Of a stretch of 64,000 bases of DNA, positions 1-8,886 are shown piece after piece. The position numbers and the translations under genes were made by a program. Source of the DNA: Bacillota bacterium (GTDB lineage Bacteria; Bacillota_E; Sulfobacillia; Sulfobacillales; JAIMBI01); NCBI GenBank assembly GCA_021828405.1, contig JAKARZ010000004.1, positions 18,061 through 82,060 on the forward strand, in the 5' to 3' direction. The notes under the pieces were generated by a model. The model searched no databases. It had not been told where the DNA came from and saw nothing but the letters and a program-made list of their open reading frames with translations. Numbering within the stretch: position 1 is the first letter of the stretch; every line of letters starts with the position of its first letter.

Positions 1-40
1 TGGCGTTCGCCGAGCGCTGCGGGACGAATGGCGCCCGCTT

Positions 41-1312
41 CTACGTCACTCCGCGACAGTCTCTGGCAACAGGCTCCGGGCGGGACATCCCCACCAGCCC
101 GAGGGCGCTTACCGCCACCATGATCCCAGACACCAACAGCACGGTCGACAGCGACACCAGCGTCGCCGCGACACCCGCAGCGACGGCCCCGAGCGGACTG
201 GTCACGCCCGTGAGCGCGCCCACCGCTCCGATGCTGCGCCCGATCACCTCAGGGCTGACCATTTGCTGAAGGAGTACATTGAGCGCTGTCGATTGGACCG
301 CTAGCGCGGTGCCCAGGATGAACATGAGTGGAAGATTTACCGCGAGAACTGGAATCCGGGATAGCGCCACGATAGACAGGCCGCCCAGGACCAACGGCAC
401 GATCGTCAGCGTCGCGGCAGTGAATCGGTCCTGGAGTCTACCAGAAGCTAGGCCGCCGGCGACTCCACCGACTCCCGCTGCCACCCAGAACCCTGCGAAT
501 GCTAACGGCCCCCCGTGCAGCACTTGACGCACCCACGCCACGTCCAGGACAAAGACGGCTATGGAGAAAAAACCCATTATCATTCCTAGCGGGACGAGAC
601 GGCGTAGAAATCGGTTCCGCCACAGGTCCTGCTGGCCGTCTACCACTTCGCGCCACAAACTCCGGCCGCGACGCTCCTGGACCGGTGGATCGGGACGCCC
701 CCGGCCAATGCGGGCCAGCGTGCCTACTGACGCCACAAAGGTGAGCGCGTCCAGGAAAAAAAGGGACGCGGGACCCAGAGCACTCAGAAGGGCTCCGGCG
801 AGCAATTGTCCCACGATACCGGCGGATGTTCGCGTGCTGGACAGAAGCCCCGTGGCCCGCGGCAGCCGTGCCTTCTCCACGAGCTGCTGCATGAACGCAA
901 ACGCCGCCGGCGTGAAAAAACTTCCCGCTACGCGACTCACGATAACGATGACGACGATGAGGCCGAGGTCCAAGTGGTGCGTGGCCGCTAAGGCAAACAG
1001 CGCGAAAGCCATTGCGGCGCGAACCATGTCGGTCGTCACAAGCGTCCGCCGGTGTCGCCATCGGTCCACGTAGACGCCGGCAAAGATCATGGCCAGACCC
1101 GATGCCTCTCCCGCGGCGGCCACCAAACCCAGTGCCGCGCGACTGTGAGTGAGCGAGAGGACCAGCCACACCAACGCAAGCCCGGTGAGTTGGTTGCCAA
1201 CCGTGGACACCCACTGTCCAGCGACGAGAATACCGAACGCGGGGTTGTCGCGTACCAAAGCCGTCAGGGAGACAGACTGAGGCGCCACGCTCCCCGATGA
1301 TTCGGTGCTCAT
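41..1312 (-). CDS. MFS transporter, probable lanthipeptide-cluster exporter
   Basis: A major facilitator superfamily efflux protein of about 423 residues and roughly 12 hydrophobic segments. It resembles the drug/siderophore exporter group: an early segment followed by DRWRHRR, the typical loop 2-3 basic motif. The ATG at 1312 is preferred over the ATG at 1331-1333 because a purine-rich GGAGAGGA lies about 10 bases before it. It follows the LanKC gene by 66 bases on the same strand, so the two are probably co-transcribed. That makes export of the modified peptide, or self-protection, a reasonable inference. Class III lanthipeptide clusters more often carry ABC exporters, so the substrate is not proven. 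Base composition matches the lower-GC island rather than the host. Confidence 0.8.
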   Translation of the reverse strand: MSTESSGSVAPQSVSLTALVRDNPAFGILVAGQWVSTVGNQLTGLALVWLVLSLTHSRAALGLVAAAGEASGLAMIFAGVYVDRWRHRRTLVTTDMVRAAMAFALFALAATHHLDLGLIVVIVIVSRVAGSFFTPAAFAFMQQLVEKARLPRATGLLSSTRTSAGIVGQLLAGALLSALGPASLFFLDALTFVASVGTLARIGRGRPDPPVQERRGRSLWREVVDGQQDLWRNRFLRRLVPLGMIMGFFSIAVFVLDVAWVRQVLHGGPLAFAGFWVAAGVGGVAGGLASGRLQDRFTAATLTIVPLVLGGLSIVALSRIPVLAVNLPLMFILGTALAVQSTALNVLLQQMVSPEVIGRSIGAVGALTGVTSPLGAVAAGVAATLVSLSTVLLVSGIMVAVSALGLVGMSRPEPVARDCRGVT

Positions 1313-1378
1313 TGCTGGGCCGTCCTCTCCCATCTATTTCTCAATCCAGCCGCAGCCGACGATTCAGACTCGACCACA

Positions 1379-4102
1379 TCACCCGACGGGGTGTCGCAGA
1401 GAGACCGGGGGGTTGCCTGCGGTGTGCAAGAGACCATCTGGCACAAAGTTGGAGTTGGAGACCCCCGTCAAGAGTCGATGGAGGAACAGCGCAATGCCTG
1501 CGGAGCCGGTGCCAAGGTCCATGGAAAGGCGAAACGAAAATTCGCCCGGAAAGTATGTGCCACTGTCCCGTCGCACTGCCTGCAACAGAATCCCGCGTGC
1601 CACGCTCCACGCCACTGCGCCACACTCCTGATCTCCCAAAATGTGAGATGCGTCCAGCAACGCATTTCCTAGCCCCGCAAGCCCGGAGAACAGACCAGGA
1701 AATTTTGTATACTTGCGTTGGATGTCCGGCAGGATTAGGCGGAATTGATTCATCAGGTCGGGGTCCTTGGTGATCGCGACATAACGGATGAGCGCGGTGA
1801 GCACTCCGGCCGAGCCGAAACGCCAATACGGTTCCCCTAGGCTGCTCGTCGGTTCTTCGCCAAACGATCGGTACCCCCCGGGCTGAGTCAGAGCTGCGTC
1901 TAGGTCAGATTGTAAGGCTATCCGCCCGATGTCTAAGAAATCCTCTCGTCGCGTGGCCAGGTAGAGGTAAAGGAAGAATAGACGGGCGCCGGCGGCACCA
2001 CGCGTATATCCCAGATAGCGCACACCCTCTGGAGTCGACCACGCGGCGTTAGCCCCACTATTCACCCGTTCTGATAAACCGTCACCTATCGCCACAGCCT
2101 CATTTAGGTATCGGGCCTCTGCCGTTTGCTGAAACAAATAGAGGCTTGCGAGACCGATGCCCGCCGCGCCGTCTTCGACGAACAGATCCGACCACCGAAG
2201 CGGATGGCTGACCGCAATTTCCCAAGATGCACGTGCCTCGTCATATTGTCTCAAATCCCATAGAGCCCACGCGATCCCTGACAGTCCGTGGTATAGGCCA
2301 GGAGGGTACTCGTGTGGGCTCAGTCTGTGAGACAGCACCCAATCTAGGTGGTGGTCAGCCACTGACCCGGTCACCCGGTTCACCACGCGCAACACGCCCA
2401 ACGCACCGTGAGACACCTCAAGCGGGTTTCGTTGGGCTGGGTCCGCTGGAAACAGGCGGTCACGACGGTCGAGGGTGGCGGAGGCCATGATCGCCGAGAT
2501 GATTTGGGGCAGGACGCTTCGTACCTCGTCCGAGGTAGCCGCACGAAACACCGGCGGCGCATCCGCGACCAGGGTGGCCGCCAGAATCGTAGGCTGGTCG
2601 AATGGCGGATCGTCGTCAGGAGGCGTCAACCCCAACAAGGGCCGAATGCGGGGGGCCCAAGGAAATTGAAGTCCATAATCCGACTCTAGTTCGCGTAGAA
2701 ACCGTTCCGGCGGTATCCCCCAAGACATCAACTCCGTCATGGGGTAGCTGAGCGTCATCAGGAGGCAGCCGAGCGCATAGCGGTCATCTTCGGGTGTTGC
2801 GCGGGGCTTGCGGTTTGGTCGCTGAAAGCCATGGGTGAACAGGGGAATCGCCCGCTCGCTGTCCGCGAACGTGGCAGCATCCAAGTCGATGAACATCACG
2901 CGCCCGTCGCCGGTGATAAGTATGTTCGTCGGCGACAGGTCCCCGAGGACAATCCCGTGATCGTGAACAGTTTCCACAGCGCGTATTAGTGCCTCCGCAA
3001 CCGTAGTATTCGCTACCCAGCGGCCCCGGATCGTAGTGTACTCTTCGGCCGCTGCCAAGCCCGGAGGCGGCGGCACCGGAGTCAGTTGTGATAGCGGCTG
3101 CCCTCCCACGAACTCCCGGACCAGGAAATAGTGCTCCCACTCTTGAAAAAATTCCACACCCTCTGGAACCAACGCGGTACGTGTGAGATGACGTAGCACC
3201 TTCCATTCATTTTTCCGAAGCGTGATGGCGTCGTTTCCAAAAGGATCATCGTCGACGTGCGGCCGTGCTTCTTTGATCACCACATCAGTGTCGCGGGAAC
3301 GGTCGTGTGCTAGGTACACTCCGCCGGAACTGGAAAAGTGACGTGGTCTGAGTATCCGATAACGACCATGGTTCAGCGTGAGTGACCCGGCCTTTTCACT
3401 GGCGGTCGGGCTCTCTGACCTGTCCGGGTCTAAGAACGGGTCTGCTGTGACCCACGGTGGCATTTGAAATCGTGGCAGGCGTCGGTCCTCCCACTCGGAC
3501 CCATCAGGTGCGACCAGAACAGGGACTCGACGGCCGTCGTAGGAAAGCCGAAAGCGAGGCCTCATGCCACCGTAGCGGTAAAAAACCGTCTTGGCATCCC
3601 GGAACCGACGGTCCGATAGTACGTAGGGGCCGCAGGCTCCTGTCAGTCTCCGCGCTAATTGGGCCAACAATGTCCCACACTGGGCCGAATCGACGAGGTA
3701 AATTGTGATGAACTTTCCGGAGCCACCGCGGTCCCATTCCCGTGAGTTAACCATCCTGAGAAAGGTCGGGTCGGCAGCAAACTTGGCAGCGACCCCCGCG
3801 GTCGCAACCAAGGGCACCACGGCTGTCAGCGTGCGCGGCGCATCAGCCAAAACACTGGACACATGGATTTTCCATCCATACGGTGGTACACGGTTTCTCG
3901 GTGGGACCATGTGCAACCAGATGGAGTCTCTCACCAGCTGCCAGTCCGTAGGCAACAGGGACCGTACGATTTCCTCATAATCGTCATTGATGGGTCGTCG
4001 TTCGACTGGCTCATAGAACGATCCGCCTGCGAGGCTGTGCAACCTCAGTTCCTCAAGACGCTTCATTTGTCGATACGCACGGCGCAAGTCGGCCTCTGAC
4101 AT
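1379..4102 (-). CDS. lanKC: Class III lanthionine synthetase (LanKC)
   Basis: A three-domain enzyme of about 907 residues that phosphorylates Ser/Thr of a precursor peptide, eliminates phosphate to dehydro residues and cyclises them with Cys. Residues 1-230 match the lyase region typical of LanKC (GKFITIY and GPYVLSDRRFRDAK blocks). Residues ~245-510 are the kinase, with GRYRIL, VVIKEA (lysine), LGDLSPTN (catalytic Asp, ~386) and FIDLDAA (metal Asp). Residues ~550-907 are a LanC-like cyclase with GLYHGLSGIA and GAAGIGLA repeats. At the places where LanC and class IV enzymes carry Cys-Cys-His zinc ligands the sequence reads YTRGAAGA and FPGLFSGLAG, so the zinc site is absent, as in class III. 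The start at 4102 has a strong GGAAGGAG eight bases upstream; the reading frame continues 25 codons further up without such a site. The precursor candidate ends 62 bases upstream. Confidence 0.92.
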   Translation of the reverse strand: MSEADLRRAYRQMKRLEELRLHSLAGGSFYEPVERRPINDDYEEIVRSLLPTDWQLVRDSIWLHMVPPRNRVPPYGWKIHVSSVLADAPRTLTAVVPLVATAGVAAKFAADPTFLRMVNSREWDRGGSGKFITIYLVDSAQCGTLLAQLARRLTGACGPYVLSDRRFRDAKTVFYRYGGMRPRFRLSYDGRRVPVLVAPDGSEWEDRRLPRFQMPPWVTADPFLDPDRSESPTASEKAGSLTLNHGRYRILRPRHFSSSGGVYLAHDRSRDTDVVIKEARPHVDDDPFGNDAITLRKNEWKVLRHLTRTALVPEGVEFFQEWEHYFLVREFVGGQPLSQLTPVPPPPGLAAAEEYTTIRGRWVANTTVAEALIRAVETVHDHGIVLGDLSPTNILITGDGRVMFIDLDAATFADSERAIPLFTHGFQRPNRKPRATPEDDRYALGCLLMTLSYPMTELMSWGIPPERFLRELESDYGLQFPWAPRIRPLLGLTPPDDDPPFDQPTILAATLVADAPPVFRAATSDEVRSVLPQIISAIMASATLDRRDRLFPADPAQRNPLEVSHGALGVLRVVNRVTGSVADHHLDWVLSHRLSPHEYPPGLYHGLSGIAWALWDLRQYDEARASWEIAVSHPLRWSDLFVEDGAAGIGLASLYLFQQTAEARYLNEAVAIGDGLSERVNSGANAAWSTPEGVRYLGYTRGAAGARLFFLYLYLATRREDFLDIGRIALQSDLDAALTQPGGYRSFGEEPTSSLGEPYWRFGSAGVLTALIRYVAITKDPDLMNQFRLILPDIQRKYTKFPGLFSGLAGLGNALLDASHILGDQECGAVAWSVARGILLQAVRRDSGTYFPGEFSFRLSMDLGTGSAGIALFLHRLLTGVSNSNFVPDGLLHTAGNPPVSLRHPVG

Positions 4103-4164
4103 CCTGGTCGCTCCTTCCTTCCCAACATGCGGTGATACGCCTGACCACCGCGCCGTGCACTCTC

Positions 4165-4386
4165 TTAGCAACTGCAAACGATGCTAATGGCGCTGGAGAG
4201 AGAGACGCTTTCGAAGTTCAGGCAGTCGTCAGCCGCTGTGGAGAGTGCCTCAGTAGAGGAGCGTGAGATACGCGACGCATCAGGCGCATCGCTTTCGAGG
4301 TTCGTCGCGCGTCCTCCGTTTTCCTTCTTCGGGAGAATCTTTCTGGTGAAAGTGCCGTGATGTGGGTGGCCGGGCGACAGGAACAC
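4165..4386 (-). CDS. lanA: Candidate class III lanthipeptide precursor peptide
   Basis: A small gene 62 bases ahead of lanKC. The frame ends in a Ser/Cys-rich tail: LSTAADDC, a linker, then SVSLSSAISIVCSC and stop. The tail contains Ser-x2-Ser-x2-Cys (SAISIVC) and Ser-x2-Ser-x5-Cys, the patterns LanKC enzymes turn into labionin or lanthionine. The only standard start in frame is GTG at 4384-4386 (73 residues), and I see no ribosome site before it. An in-frame ACG at 4303-4305 is preceded at six bases by GGAGGA and would give 46 residues, the normal size of class III precursors (RamS/LabA-like, about 40-45); its N-terminus would read (M)NLESDAPDAS. The usual leader LxxLQ motif is not obvious. 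The gene is easily missed because of its size and start. The call rests on position, composition and core motif. Confidence 0.72.
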   Translation of the reverse strand: MFLSPGHPHHGTFTRKILPKKENGGRATNLESDAPDASRISRSSTEALSTAADDCLNFESVSLSSAISIVCSC

Positions 4387-4668
4387 TTGCCCGACGGACG
4401 TTTTGGATCCTCACCCAGGTCGAGGGTACGTGCCAGCGGGCGGCTCTAAACACACAGTTGAGCCGACATCTGCCCCACACCGGGGGTATGACCGGTGGTC
4501 CCAAGACGCCGCTAAAATTCCGCTCGGGGCCGTCGACAGTACGGGGGTAGCCGGGGGCAGGGAAGGCCAACACAAGAAAACGGGCCGGGCAGGAACATGC
4601 GGCGCCGCTGGCGAACCAATCGCACAGGCACGGCCATCACAGCAATGTGGAGACGGGAGGTGGGGCGC

Positions 4669-4920
4669 GTGCCGTACCGTCCCCGCAACCCGTCCGGCTT
4701 TGTCCGCAAGCACCCCGACACGGCGACGGAGCGCTGGCAGGGCATCGTGAAATATTGGGATGTCACTGAGGAACGCTGGCGGCCACGCTCGAAAACCTTT
4801 GCCAGTCGGGCAGAGGCAAATGCGTGGGTTGACGCCGCCAAGATGGAACATCGGAAGAACCCCGGCTATCGTCCCCCCGCCGATGAAAACCCTGGCCGCG
4901 TACCTGACGCGATGGTTGGA
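4669..4920 (+). pseudogene. N-terminal arm-binding part of tyrosine integrase (separate frame)
   Basis: The GTG at 4669 has GGGAGG eight bases upstream and opens a frame encoding the N-terminal DNA-binding (AP2/arm-type) region of a phage/ICE integrase: RWQGIVKYWD, then KTFASRAEANAWVDAAK. The frame stops at 4918-4920, while the rest of the integrase continues in the +1-related frame from about 4883. The switch lies near a run of six C at 4873-4878. Either the integrase is broken by an indel in that run, or the two parts are made separately or by frameshifting. The overlap of an ATG with the first frame's end would allow translational restart. Confidence 0.7.
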
Positions 4921-5905
4921 TGACACCGTGACGGGCCGGCGACGGGCCAACACCGTGGATCGGTATCGACTGGCCGTGCGCCACATCGTGCGGCACCTCG
5001 GGTCGGTGCCGCTGTCGCACCTCAGTCCCCAGGATGTCCAACACCTGGATACCCTGCTCCTCGCCGATGGACTCGCCCCCGCCACCGTGAAACTAACGCA
5101 TACGGTGTTGCACGCGGCGTGCGAGGACGCGGTGACGGTGAACCTTCTGCTACGCAATCCGACGCGCGGCGTCCGGCCCCCGGCCCCCCGACGGCGAGAA
5201 CCCACGGTCCCGACGATTGCGGAAGCGCGGACGTTTCTCGCAGCGGCCGAATCCGACCGCCTGCGGGCCCTTTGGATCACGCTCGCGCTGACTGGCATGC
5301 GCCGGGGGGAGGCGCTGACGTTGCGATGGTCCGACGTGCATTGGGAGGATCAGACCATTGTGGTGGAGCGCACGCTCAGTCGCTACGGGGCCAAGCGCAC
5401 GCTGGAAGACACGAAAAGGCGTGCGGGCGGGCGTACGGTCGCCCTGTCCCCCTATCTGATCCGAGTGCTGCGCGATCAGCAAGCCCATCAGGCCGAGTTA
5501 CGGGCCGCGGCGGGGGATCGCTGGCAGGAGCACAATTGGATCTTTACCACGCGGAATGGCACGTGGATCGCCGGCGGCCATGCCTACGACGCCTTCAAGG
5601 CCCTTCGCCAGCGCGCAGGACTGCCGGACCGTATCCGCCCGCATGACCTCCGGCATGCCATGGCCACCCACTGGCTCGCGAGCGGCGTCCCGGTCAAGGT
5701 GGTGACGGAGCGGTTGGGGCATTCCAGTGTTGCGATCACGTTGGAGTTGTATGGTCACGTGCTGCCGACGATGCAAGCCACCGCGGCGGCCCAAATGGAA
5801 GCCGCCTTGGTGGACGGCGTCACCACGGCGTCACCACGAGCCGAGAGAAACCAGGTTTCTGAGGAGACGCAAGAGACAACCACTACCCCAGAAACCCTAT
5901 CATAA
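4883..5905 (+). CDS. Tyrosine site-specific integrase, core-binding and catalytic domains
   Basis: A site-specific recombinase of the lambda-integrase family that would integrate and excise the island. From the ATG at 4883, residues ~1-95 form the SAM-like core-binding domain (KTLAAYLTRWL onward). The catalytic domain follows, with TGMRRGEAL (Arg I), a lysine-containing beta hairpin, HDLRHAMATHWL (His-x-x-Arg) and LGHSSVAITLELYGHV (His and nucleophile Tyr). All catalytic residues appear present. The frame can be read upstream to 4760, but that stretch is a shadow of the N-terminal domain, which is encoded in another frame. The C-terminal tail (~35 residues, rich in Thr/Glu) is unremarkable. 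It lies next to the attachment-like site at 5953-5982, the usual arrangement. Confidence 0.85.
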   Translation: MKTLAAYLTRWLDDTVTGRRRANTVDRYRLAVRHIVRHLGSVPLSHLSPQDVQHLDTLLLADGLAPATVKLTHTVLHAACEDAVTVNLLLRNPTRGVRPPAPRRREPTVPTIAEARTFLAAAESDRLRALWITLALTGMRRGEALTLRWSDVHWEDQTIVVERTLSRYGAKRTLEDTKRRAGGRTVALSPYLIRVLRDQQAHQAELRAAAGDRWQEHNWIFTTRNGTWIAGGHAYDAFKALRQRAGLPDRIRPHDLRHAMATHWLASGVPVKVVTERLGHSSVAITLELYGHVLPTMQATAAAQMEAALVDGVTTASPRAERNQVSEETQETTTTPETLS

Positions 5906-5952
5906 CGCCACTTCAGAGGCGTTTGGCACATGGAGAGACATGCTGGGTGAGA

Positions 5953-5982
5953 ACAGAGGTTTGAGTCCCTTCGGGCGCACCA
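5953..5982 (+). other. Probable island attachment site: 3' end of a tRNA gene
   Basis: The sequence GGTTTGAGTCC resembles a T-arm and loop and is followed by CTT, then CGGGCGC, A and CCA. This is the 3' acceptor strand, discriminator and encoded CCA of a tRNA whose 5' strand would start GCGCCCG (often tRNA-Arg). No matching 5' half, D-arm or anticodon arm lies upstream. It is therefore a 3' fragment, as regenerated when an integrase uses a tRNA 3' end as its attachment site. It sits 48 bases after the integrase stop and just before an intrinsic terminator. The intact tRNA and the other boundary should lie left of this window. Confidence 0.6.
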
Positions 5983-5991
5983 AGAGTTTGA

Positions 5992-6024
5992 AACCCGCAT
6001 TCCGCTAGGGATTGCGGGTTTTTT
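5992..6024 (+). terminator. Intrinsic terminator after the tRNA fragment
   Basis: AACCCGCATTCC, a four-base loop, GGGATTGCGGG and then a run of six T. It probably came along as the original terminator of the tRNA gene and now insulates the island end. Confidence 0.8.
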
Positions 6025-6182
6025 CATGCGACATCCCCGGCGTCGCCAAGAGAGGTGGCAGAGAATGGCGGGCATCCGTGCGGCGCCGCCGGGTGCAGTA
6101 GGATCACTGCCAAAAGGGGGAGGCAGACGGTGGATATGACGGGCGCCTGGGATCGGCTGCGGCACACCCGTGCGCGCGCGAC

Positions 6183-6395
6183 CTGGGCGACATCCGGTGT
6201 GAGGGCGGCTGGGTGGAGCTGCTGGATTCTTGCTTCATGGCGCGGCTAACGCTCCATGCGGACAATGGGGCGGCGATGGCGTCCCAGCCGGGGGCCGCCC
6301 TGCTGGAGGAATTGGGCGTCACCAAGAGCCATTCCCGGCGGCACACATCCAACGACAATCCCTTCTCGGAACGCAGTTCAAGACACTCAAGTACC
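6183..6395 (+). pseudogene. Remnant of an IS3-type transposase (DDE/rve core)
   Basis: The frame around 6240-6375 encodes LTLHADNGAAMASQP, then ELGVTKSHSRRHTSNDNPFS. This matches the conserved integrase-core stretch of IS3-family transposases, where HADRGxxM and HVSNDNPFSE surround the second catalytic Asp. The expected continuation QFKTLKYP appears in a different frame after 6373, so the copy is frameshifted. The N-terminal domain, the orfA partner and recognisable terminal repeats are missing. It directly abuts the truncated phosphotransferase remnant on the other strand, suggesting that insertion destroyed that gene. Confidence 0.7.
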
Positions 6396-6763
6396 CTCAC
6401 CCGACACCCAGGGAAACACGGCGCAGCTGCAGTTCGGCCCGATTCGGACCGCGGGGCTTCCATCCAGGGAGGGGACCGGGGCCACCACGAAATCCAGGCG
6501 CGCCTCGTCGCGCAGGGCCACGGTCGTCGCGAAGGTCGTGGAGAGACCAGCAAAGGCACTGGCCGGATCTGCGCCCAGCCAGTCCTTATGGCGAAGGTCA
6601 TCCACTGTCACGAAATAGCGGCGGCCCTAGTCTGCCTCCGCCATCCAGTGATAACGCCGAAGCCCGTGGGTACGTAGGTCTGGCGCGAGGGACCAAGGCC
6701 CCAGGCCAATGCCAGGGCGCTGCGGACGTCGTTCGCGTCCAGATCGCCTGGCAAATCGTTCAT
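6396..6763 (-). pseudogene. Truncated aminoglycoside-phosphotransferase-like gene
   Basis: The minus-strand reading starts at ATG 6763 (MNDLPGDLDANDVRSALALAWGL, given here only as the start of the frame). It loses frame near GFG about 6650, meets a stop, and resumes as GRRYFVTVDDLRHKDWLG, then LDFVVAPVPSLDG, RIGPNCSCAVFPWVSGEG. This is the N-lobe of a kinase-fold phosphotransferase common in high-GC bacteria. The catalytic HGD loop and the C-lobe are absent because the coding sequence ends at the IS remnant. It cannot be functional. Confidence 0.65.
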
Positions 6764-6966
6764 GGGGTGAGCTTAGCACGCACGCGCTCCACTATCAGGT
6801 TCCGCCGACGGGTGCCCTGGTCGCGCGTGGGTCCCGCAAGCACGAAGCCCCAACCAGACCACCGCCTACGCCACAGAAAGAGCGGACGAACTGCCACGGC
6901 CAGCGAATCGCGGCCTCGCGTACGCGCTGTCGCGGTGTTATAGTGCGGTCATGCGGGAGGGGTTTT

Positions 6967-7389
6967 GTGCCAGACCCAGACGTTCGATGGCAGCAGCGGC
7001 TGCACCACTGCCAGCGTGCTCTACTCCAACTGGCGGCTGGCGTGCGCCTCGCCGCCGAGCGCACGCTCAGCCCCCTAGAGGAACAGGGTCTCATCAAAGC
7101 TTTTGAATACACGTACGAACTCTCGTGGAACGTCCTCAAGGACTTTCTGGAGAGCCAAGGTGCCGGCCCCCTCTATGGATCGCGGGACACTATCCGGTCC
7201 GCGTTCAGGGCTGGACTCCTTGAAGACGGCGAGGGCTGGATGGAGATGGTGGAGAGTCGGAATCTCACGGCTCACAGCTACGATGAGGCAACCGCGGCGC
7301 GCATTGTTGCTGATGTCCGCACGCGGTACGTTGCCCTCATCACCACGATGGTGGATGCCATGTCCGCGCGGGAAGCGACCTCGCCATGA
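6967..7389 (+). CDS. hepT: HepT-like HEPN protein (nucleotidyltransferase substrate-binding/toxin)
   Basis: A helical HEPN-fold protein of 140 residues from the HI0074/HepT group. Near residue 100 it carries RNLTAHSY, the Arg-x4-His-x-Tyr motif of HepT ribonuclease toxins, whose Tyr is the known AMPylation target of MntA. The GTG at 6967 has GGGAGG six bases before it. The frame can be read further upstream to 6709, but that part resembles nothing. Its stop overlaps the start of the nucleotidyltransferase gene (ATGA at 7386-7389), the standard toxin-antitoxin arrangement. Its location beside the island boundary among broken genes fits a mobile addiction module. Confidence 0.85.
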   Translation: MPDPDVRWQQRLHHCQRALLQLAAGVRLAAERTLSPLEEQGLIKAFEYTYELSWNVLKDFLESQGAGPLYGSRDTIRSAFRAGLLEDGEGWMEMVESRNLTAHSYDEATAARIVADVRTRYVALITTMVDAMSAREATSP

Positions 7390-7709
7390 CGTTCGGGCTC
7401 TCCGACCGCTCGGTTCGGACGGTGCAATCCATCCTTCAGCAGGAGCCTGCGGTAGAGCGGGCGATCCTGTTTGGGTCGCGCGCCAAAGGGACCCACCGCC
7501 CAGGCTCCGACATTGATCTTGCGCTTGTAGGCCCTGAATTGCAGCACACCGCGCTCCTTCGCCTCATGCGCGCTTTTGCGGACTCTTCGCTCCCCTACAC
7601 GGTGGATCTTGCTGTCTGGCATCTCATAGAAGACCCCGAGCTCAGGAGCCACATTGACAGACGCGGAGTGCCGTTCTACGAGCGCGATTTGGGCCGGGTC
7701 CGGCTGTAG
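7386..7709 (+). CDS. mntA: MntA-like minimal nucleotidyltransferase (antitoxin)
   Basis: A minimal nucleotidyltransferase of 107 residues with the signature GSRAKGTHRPGSDIDLAL (Gly-Ser-x10-Asp-x-Asp) at about residues 29-46 and a third acidic position in TVDLAV near 76. In characterised HepT/MntA pairs this protein adds AMP to the toxin tyrosine and silences it. It overlaps the HepT gene by four bases and is therefore translationally coupled. The three catalytic acidic residues are intact, so the module looks functional. Confidence 0.87.
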   Translation: MTFGLSDRSVRTVQSILQQEPAVERAILFGSRAKGTHRPGSDIDLALVGPELQHTALLRLMRAFADSSLPYTVDLAVWHLIEDPELRSHIDRRGVPFYERDLGRVRL

Positions 7710-7824
7710 GCGCGACCCGAGGCCAGCCAGACCCTTGGTAGGACGCTTCAGACCGAGGTGGCGTTTGTGGAGCGGGTGTCGATGAGGGCGCGCTCCACGG
7801 CTCACACCCGTCGCTACCGCGCGC

Positions 7825-8886
7825 TCAAGCGATGATGGTGCCGAACTGCATCAGGCTGTCGGACGCATCGGGCCATGCGCGGCCGGCGACGCAGCGCGTG
7901 TGCTCGGCCGGGGTGATGGGGCCCCAGGTGCTTTCAAACAGCGCCACGAGCTTTTGGGGGTCGTCCGTGCGCCAGGACGGGTCCAGGGCGCCCCACAGGC
8001 GAAACTCGTCTTTGTTGGAGCCCACCAGCAGGGGGACCTTCATTATCTATCCCTTCGCGACGGCCTCCCAGAGCGTTTGCGGCAGCGTGGTGCCGTCGAC
8101 GATGGGCCACGCCACCCCGCTCTGGTAGGCCGACAGCAAGGTTTCGACGGGCACCGCCTGTAGGGCGGACAGGATGTCGCCCCGAATGGCCAGGCGGGCC
8201 AAACAGGCTTGAGTCTCCCGGCCCGCCTGCGTGCGATCCCGATACACGGGGATGAAGCTTTCCAGGATGGCCTGGTGAAACAGACCGCGGGCCGCCGACA
8301 TGCACAGCAGCGTGGCTATAGACAGGGCGCCGGCCGATTCTTTTGCCACGGTCACGCGGGCGGGATCACCACCCAGGGCCCGAATGTTTCGCTTGTTCCA
8401 CAAGAGCGCTGCCACTTGGTCCAGCAGGCCGAGGTTTCCTGAGCCGTCCGCCGCTTCGCCGAGATGCAGAAAGCCCAGGGGCTCCAGGCGATAGTTGAGC
8501 GTGACCAGGACGACGCCGTGGCGGGCAAACGACGTCCCGTCGTATGTGGGGCGCCGCCCACTGCCGGTCACCCGCTCCGCCGTGCATCCACACCAGCACC
8601 GGGTGCGGCCCGGGGGACGTTGGGGCCCATACGTTCAGCGTGAGGCAGTCTTCGCTCTGGAGGCCGTTTTCCGCCAGGAGCGGGTGGGAGGACTGCGGTG
8701 CCACCGCGCCAAATTTCGTGACGTCGCGCACGCCAGCCCAGGACTCCGGGAGCACCGGGGGCCGAAACCGCAGCGCGCCCACGGGCGGGCGCGTAAGGCA
8801 CGCCGCGCCAAACGTTGACGTCTTCCGCGTGCTCACCCTCGAGCAGCCCGCGTCGGTGAGGGCGTGGGCTGCGAGATGGTACTCAT
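7825..8886 (-). pseudogene. Carboxylesterase type B, multiply frameshifted
   Basis: Pieces of one alpha/beta-hydrolase (para-nitrobenzyl-esterase type) lie in order on the minus strand in at least three frames. These are an N-terminal [12 protein letters not shown] and [11 protein letters not shown], then [12 protein letters not shown] and VLVWMHGGA (oxyanion strand). [18 protein letters not shown] and [12 protein letters not shown] follow, and finally PLLVGSNKDEF. The nucleophile elbow reads KESAGA instead of GESAGA, so even the catalytic region has drifted. The ATG at 8884-8886 is the likely old start, and the C-terminal third is missing. The type B family is normally about 500 residues. 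Confidence 0.8.

Follow-up and report, generated by a model that had tools for sequence, protein, structure and literature searches.

The window, a stretch of 64,000 nucleotides, carries near its start a gene for a class III lanthionine synthetase, lanKC, which lies between an MFS transporter gene and a divergent tyrosine recombinase gene (Table 1). LanKC scores 696.9 bits against NF038151 (curated cut-off 575), upholding the initial annotation, which had taken this neighbour for a class III lanKC. Its domains follow the order lyase-kinase-cyclase (RamC_N, Pkinase, LANC_like), and among the catalytic residues scored, those of the lyase and the kinase, 7/8 (K108 is R) and 2/2, respectively, are kept. 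The closest protein, P0003, is 47% identical. The reading frames of lanKC and the MFS gene are intact, and the position of the latter suggests a possible role as exporter. Between the MFS stop codon and the window edge lie 40 bases, which contain no start codon. The G+C content is 59.5-65.3% over bases 1-8000, beside the recombinase gene; among 28 later 2-kb bins it is 66.5-72.6% in 24 and 61.8-64.2% in 4. Low G+C content and the adjoining recombinase gene indicate that positions 1-8000 are possibly an acquired island. As to the host, the aspartyl-tRNA synthetase gave no match at 1e-60 in 61 genomes of the Gemmatimonas phylum, an empty result that says little; among the best 120 of 7,992 matches, the first to carry an organism name is from Streptosporangiaceae (62%), and a Gemmatimonadales MAG follows lower in the list (59%).

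Table 1. Features at the lanKC locus (positions in the window).
Feature	Position	Strand	Basis
MFS transporter 3' of lanKC, possible exporter	41..1333	-	Pfam MFS_1
lanKC, class III lanthionine synthetase, 907 aa, ATG start	1379..4102	-	NF038151, Pfam domains
Open frame holding the candidate precursor	4165..4386	-	read directly
Candidate 46-residue reading from ACG (putative start)	4165..4305	-	read directly
Class III-type core tail SAISIVCSC (probable)	4168..4194	-	matrix tests
14-nt in-frame repeat GAAC(C/T)TCGAAAGCG	second copy 4206..4219, first 4303-4290	-	3/400 simulated sequences with comparable repeat
GGAGGA, six bases 5' of ACG	4312..4317	-	read directly
Tyrosine recombinase/integrase, divergent, upstream	4760..5905	+	Phage_integrase

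The leader of class III precursors docks as a helix in a groove formed by the kinase and lyase domains of the synthetase. The andalusicin synthetase ThurKC (8sao) has its domains in the same order as the window LanKC and agrees with it in most catalytic residues and in the greater part of the leader site. At the ThurKC residues named as leader contacts in the available text of PMC10604976 (R112, Y148, F194, L225, I230, F236, Y243, E258, W302 and F306), the window LanKC is identical in 8/10, among them the three glutamine-binding residues; F194 is replaced by R and L225 by H. The alignment of L225 is doubtful because this residue adjoins gaps, and leucine occupies its position in 0/21 aligned LanKCs. 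Across this alignment, which consists of the window LanKC and its 20 best hits, R125, Y263, E278 and W322 never vary; they include the R, Y and E that bind the glutamine.

Upstream of lanKC, the open frame 4386-4165 (minus strand) runs from GTG to TAA and reads VFLSPGHPHHGTFTRKILPKKENGGRATNLESDAPDASRISRSSTEALSTAADDCLNFESVSLSSAISIVCSC*. Its stop (4167-4165) is separated by 62 bases from the lanKC ATG (4102-4100) on the same strand, a location next to lanKC as expected of a precursor gene. GTG 4386 is the sole ATG, GTG or TTG codon in the frame, and the SD scan found no Shine-Dalgarno (SD) word of at least 4 bases before it. Six bases separate GGAGGA (4317-4312) from an in-frame ACG (4305-4303), which would open a 46-residue peptide. 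The frame, its distance from lanKC, the GTG and the ACG site had been described in the initial annotation and are confirmed by direct reading and, for the GTG, by codon listing and the SD scan. Its further claim that the ACG is the probable start is better put as a possible one: this is one of several readings, and a second in-frame ACG (4401-4399), not mentioned there, follows a purine-rich GAGGA at spacing 6 and would open 78 residues.

ACG is not a standard bacterial start. The pairing of a recognised start codon with a ribosome site that marks a precursor gene is therefore missing, the GTG having no SD and the SD preceding an ACG. Of 20,000 regions of 657 nt that were simulated, 3.7% contained an ACG that follows an SD and opens 30-80 codons, 18.6% an SD with any start of the set ATG, GTG, TTG, CTG, ATT, ATC, ATA and ACG, and 0.34% a start of this eight-codon set with an SD and a C-terminal S/T-x2-S/T-x2,3-C. 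Because of the first two chance rates, the ACG/SD site alone is weak evidence. In 4103-4759, a simple consensus scan, a weak method, detected nothing resembling a promoter. Literature listings, which are no proof of absence, did not point to any bacterial ACG start.

In class III cores, phosphorylation of Ser and Thr precedes their elimination, and ring closure by Cys gives a lanthionine or labionin. The tail of the candidate has the pattern S/T-x2-S/T-x2,3-C that a precursor should have, which we scored with a six-column matrix trained on precursors beside other lanKC genes, the candidate being excluded. This matrix was devised after the candidate had been seen, so that its figures are guides and no formal probabilities. 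The candidate core scores 12.4, ranking first among 1082 stop-terminated window frames of at least 30 codons (runner-up 8.3), and 12.6 when the matrix is trained with one peptide fewer; none of the simulated frames reached its score (0/67,993 and 0/67,959, together 0/135,952). Trained on all 19 loci, the matrix gives 11.4, which was reached by 0/3,192 natural frames in these loci (3 reached 9, the best 10.7) after 44/3,236 frames had been dropped beforehand as precursors or precursor-like. When left out of training, 3/19 known precursors score as high as the candidate, which thus counts among the better members and not the average ones. With one locus left out at a time, the real precursor came first in 14/19 loci and second in 1, and was missed in 4.

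By its sequence, the tail of the frame is probably a class III lanthipeptide core, as had been proposed for SAISIVC; STAADDC, put forward in the same annotation as a second substrate segment, does not match S/T-x2-S/T-x2,3-C. The core sequence SAISIVCSC is new, but its class III kind is already known: SapB/AmfS-type and other actinobacterial precursors likewise end, or nearly end, in S-x2-S-x2,3-C, and SAISYAC (L033), SALSIVYC (L039) and SSLSITTC (L035) resemble SAISIVC in having small or hydrophobic residues in between. Unlike the candidate, these precursors begin at ATG or GTG and carry a leader of the LxLQ type. Given a leader, the candidate core would behave like other class III substrates. 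The 14-nt in-frame repeat may reflect an internal duplication of the core, but the unit alignment was matched by 233/5000 shuffles.

Codon usage and homologue searches bear on whether the frame is non-coding, Ser-rich DNA whose end is core-like by chance. With a codon model of the island, 83/180 wrong-frame segments score at least as high as the candidate and 0/36 true segments as low; with a 12-gene model, these numbers are 273/675 and 3/135. The synonymous-codon score of the 46 codons, -3.4, is closer to the mean for random coding (-2.3, sd 2.6) than to the mean for island usage (2.1, sd 2.3). The candidate's codon usage resembles that of wrong frames, and coding is unsupported by two tests, both weak at 46 codons; a precursor peptide needs no codon bias. 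A search needing shared 5-residue words found no homologue among ~5.8 billion proteins, a search of plasmids gave none either, and in seven lanKC-bearing genomes the candidate matched only at E values of at least 0.698, in 2/7. None of these protein, plasmid and lanKC-genome searches gave a relative showing ATG or ACG at the candidate start position. Such short peptides diverge fast, which limits the meaning of empty searches. A chance origin is in line with both codon models, with the lack of homologues and with the 18.6% of simulations offering an SD and some near-cognate start; it is at odds with a core score that no simulated or natural frame reached and with a position directly before lanKC on its strand, and we regard it as quite unlikely.

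Searches for lanKC loci gave one genome contig, no viral contigs, and 7/395 and 4/288 whole genomes (overlapping), at 34-38% identity. We compared the window with 20 lanKC loci (L001, L012-L014, L025-L030, L032-L041). In one scan, 16/20 showed an LxLQ small frame with ATG, GTG or TTG no more than 3.5 kb away; chance frames are returned as well, and credible peptides were picked by eye. The LxLQ peptides of L035, L036 and L037 escaped the scan rule and were found by eye, and L029 had none among the small frames scanned. The lanKC gene appears interrupted in L001, L029 and L030, with LxLQ peptides still present in L001 and L030; in L001 (8001-10623), from a Gemmatimonas MAG, LanKC lies in two pieces in different frames. 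By our tally, precursors are downstream of lanKC or on both sides in 14/19 comparators and only upstream in 5/19. L001 has two LxLQ precursors just after the ABC transporter gene (Pfam) that follows lanKC. In the Deinococcus clusters L012 and L013, whose LanKCs are 36-37% identical to that of the window, precursors lie upstream of lanKC on the same strand, like the candidate; they have MKRVLQLQ/MNKILKLQ leaders in several copies and an ABC transporter, whereas the window has an MFS transporter and no such leader. Six LxLQ precursor frames are present in L012 (2882-3753), two of which are listed in the incomplete PLSDB gene table, and on the Hoyosella plasmid L039 the LxLQ precursor ending in SALSIVYC, at +43 downstream of lanKC, has no gene in the incomplete PLSDB table. 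The available text of a large survey describes LxLQ as a motif frequently observed in class III, puts the unannotated share of class III precursors at about 55% and admits ATG, GTG and TTG starts only (PMC7268733).

The candidate frame contains neither an LxLQ motif nor any glutamine, whereas 19/20 comparator loci have an LxLQ peptide with an ordinary start and LanKC keeps the Gln-binding residues. Its description as a typical precursor is thus not borne out. According to the available text of PMC10604976, the leader helix bound by ThurKC makes Leu and Gln contacts, which the candidate does not have. No class III precursor without LxLQ stood out in literature listings, which do not prove absence. 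A search for an LxLQ precursor elsewhere in the window listed few frames, all judged chance by eye and none credible beside lanKC, and RKIL (4344-4333), which has no LQ, start or SD, was likewise judged chance by eye. The three minus-strand frames of 4759-4103 were read for a leader hidden by a frameshift, a weak possibility. They give VRIQ (4414-4403), loosely leader-like, which begins at a GTG in another frame with no SD seen before it, and LSLQ (4204-4193), their only strict LxLQ, which lies inside the core stretch and soon hits a stop.

An assembly or sequencing error could have turned a true ATG start into ACG, one transition away at an SD-preceded site, or hidden the leader by an indel, which could join VRIQ to the core frame; the DNA may stem from a metagenome assembly (4 contigs share one LanKC sequence). 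However, an ATG at 4305 would still leave the peptide without LxLQ, VRIQ with its SD-less GTG is unlike the LxLQ of the comparators, LSLQ is placed in the core, and the LanKC and MFS frames are intact, so that we consider an error improbable.

Alternatively, the frame may be a working precursor read from ACG 4305, with a leader independent of LxLQ, whose SAISIVCSC LanKC turns into a lanthionine or labionin ring. The well-spaced GGAGGA, the suitable length of 46 residues, the strong core matrix test and the location on the lanKC strand, 62 bases ahead of the gene, which recalls the upstream precursors of the Deinococcus loci, all argue for it. In the available text of PMC10604976, most single leader changes in ThurA1 stall rather than abolish modification, which also speaks in its favour. 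Set against this are the lack of LxLQ and Gln beside a conserved LanKC leader site, the LxLQ of 19/20 comparators, a non-standard start, unsupportive codon tests, the absence of homologues and the result of the promoter scan. We regard a working precursor from this ACG as unlikely, if less so than the other alternatives; that it is recognised without LxLQ and yields a new ring peptide from SAISIVCSC is a somewhat more doubtful proposition.

The best explanation, which we hold tentatively and at somewhat less than an even chance, is that the frame is a copy of a class III precursor whose 5' part has been lost or has degenerated, next to a lanKC that is intact, and that the functional LxLQ precursor lies elsewhere; this reading best accounts for a real core that lacks both an ordinary start and a leader. 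What the sequence shows directly is the core motif, an intact synthetase and the missing leader motif. The SAISIVC plus SC core would be, or descend from, a substrate of the adjacent LanKC; its 5' part, with no ordinary start and ribosome site and no LxLQ helix for the LanKC groove, appears unlike that of a working precursor, and the leader may have been lost or scrambled. One or more working LxLQ precursors plausibly lie past the MFS gene, outside the window. The window edge past this gene is a matching place, since the L001 precursors follow the transporter and 14/19 comparators have precursors downstream or on both sides. Against leader loss, the GGAGGA-ACG at a plausible length would be a coincidence (3.7% for ACG), the frame is uninterrupted by a stop, no working LxLQ precursor was seen within the window, and the 5/19 comparators with upstream precursors only are like the candidate. 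The weights among the four readings are our judgement; neither the VRIQ frame nor the Pfam identity of the L001 transporter changed them. Because the LxLQ leader and an ordinary start with ribosome site are missing, we file the candidate as a probable class III core and not as a confirmed precursor.

If the candidate is a remnant, a core-like tail beside lanKC is insufficient to name the substrate, and the window edge is a place to look for the precursor. If it works, it would demonstrate class III modification that does without the leader motif found in 19/20 comparator loci, together with a natural ACG start, a case that mining by ATG/GTG/TTG and LxLQ would miss or mis-start.

Further along the window, a nucleotidyltransferase-substrate-binding protein (HepT-like, below cut-off) adjoins a Polbeta nucleotidyltransferase at 6709-7709 (plus strand), a pair that we take to resemble the HepT-MntA toxin-antitoxin pair. 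At 8047-8836 (minus strand), a carboxylesterase appears to be divided between two frames that overlap, as if the gene were broken.
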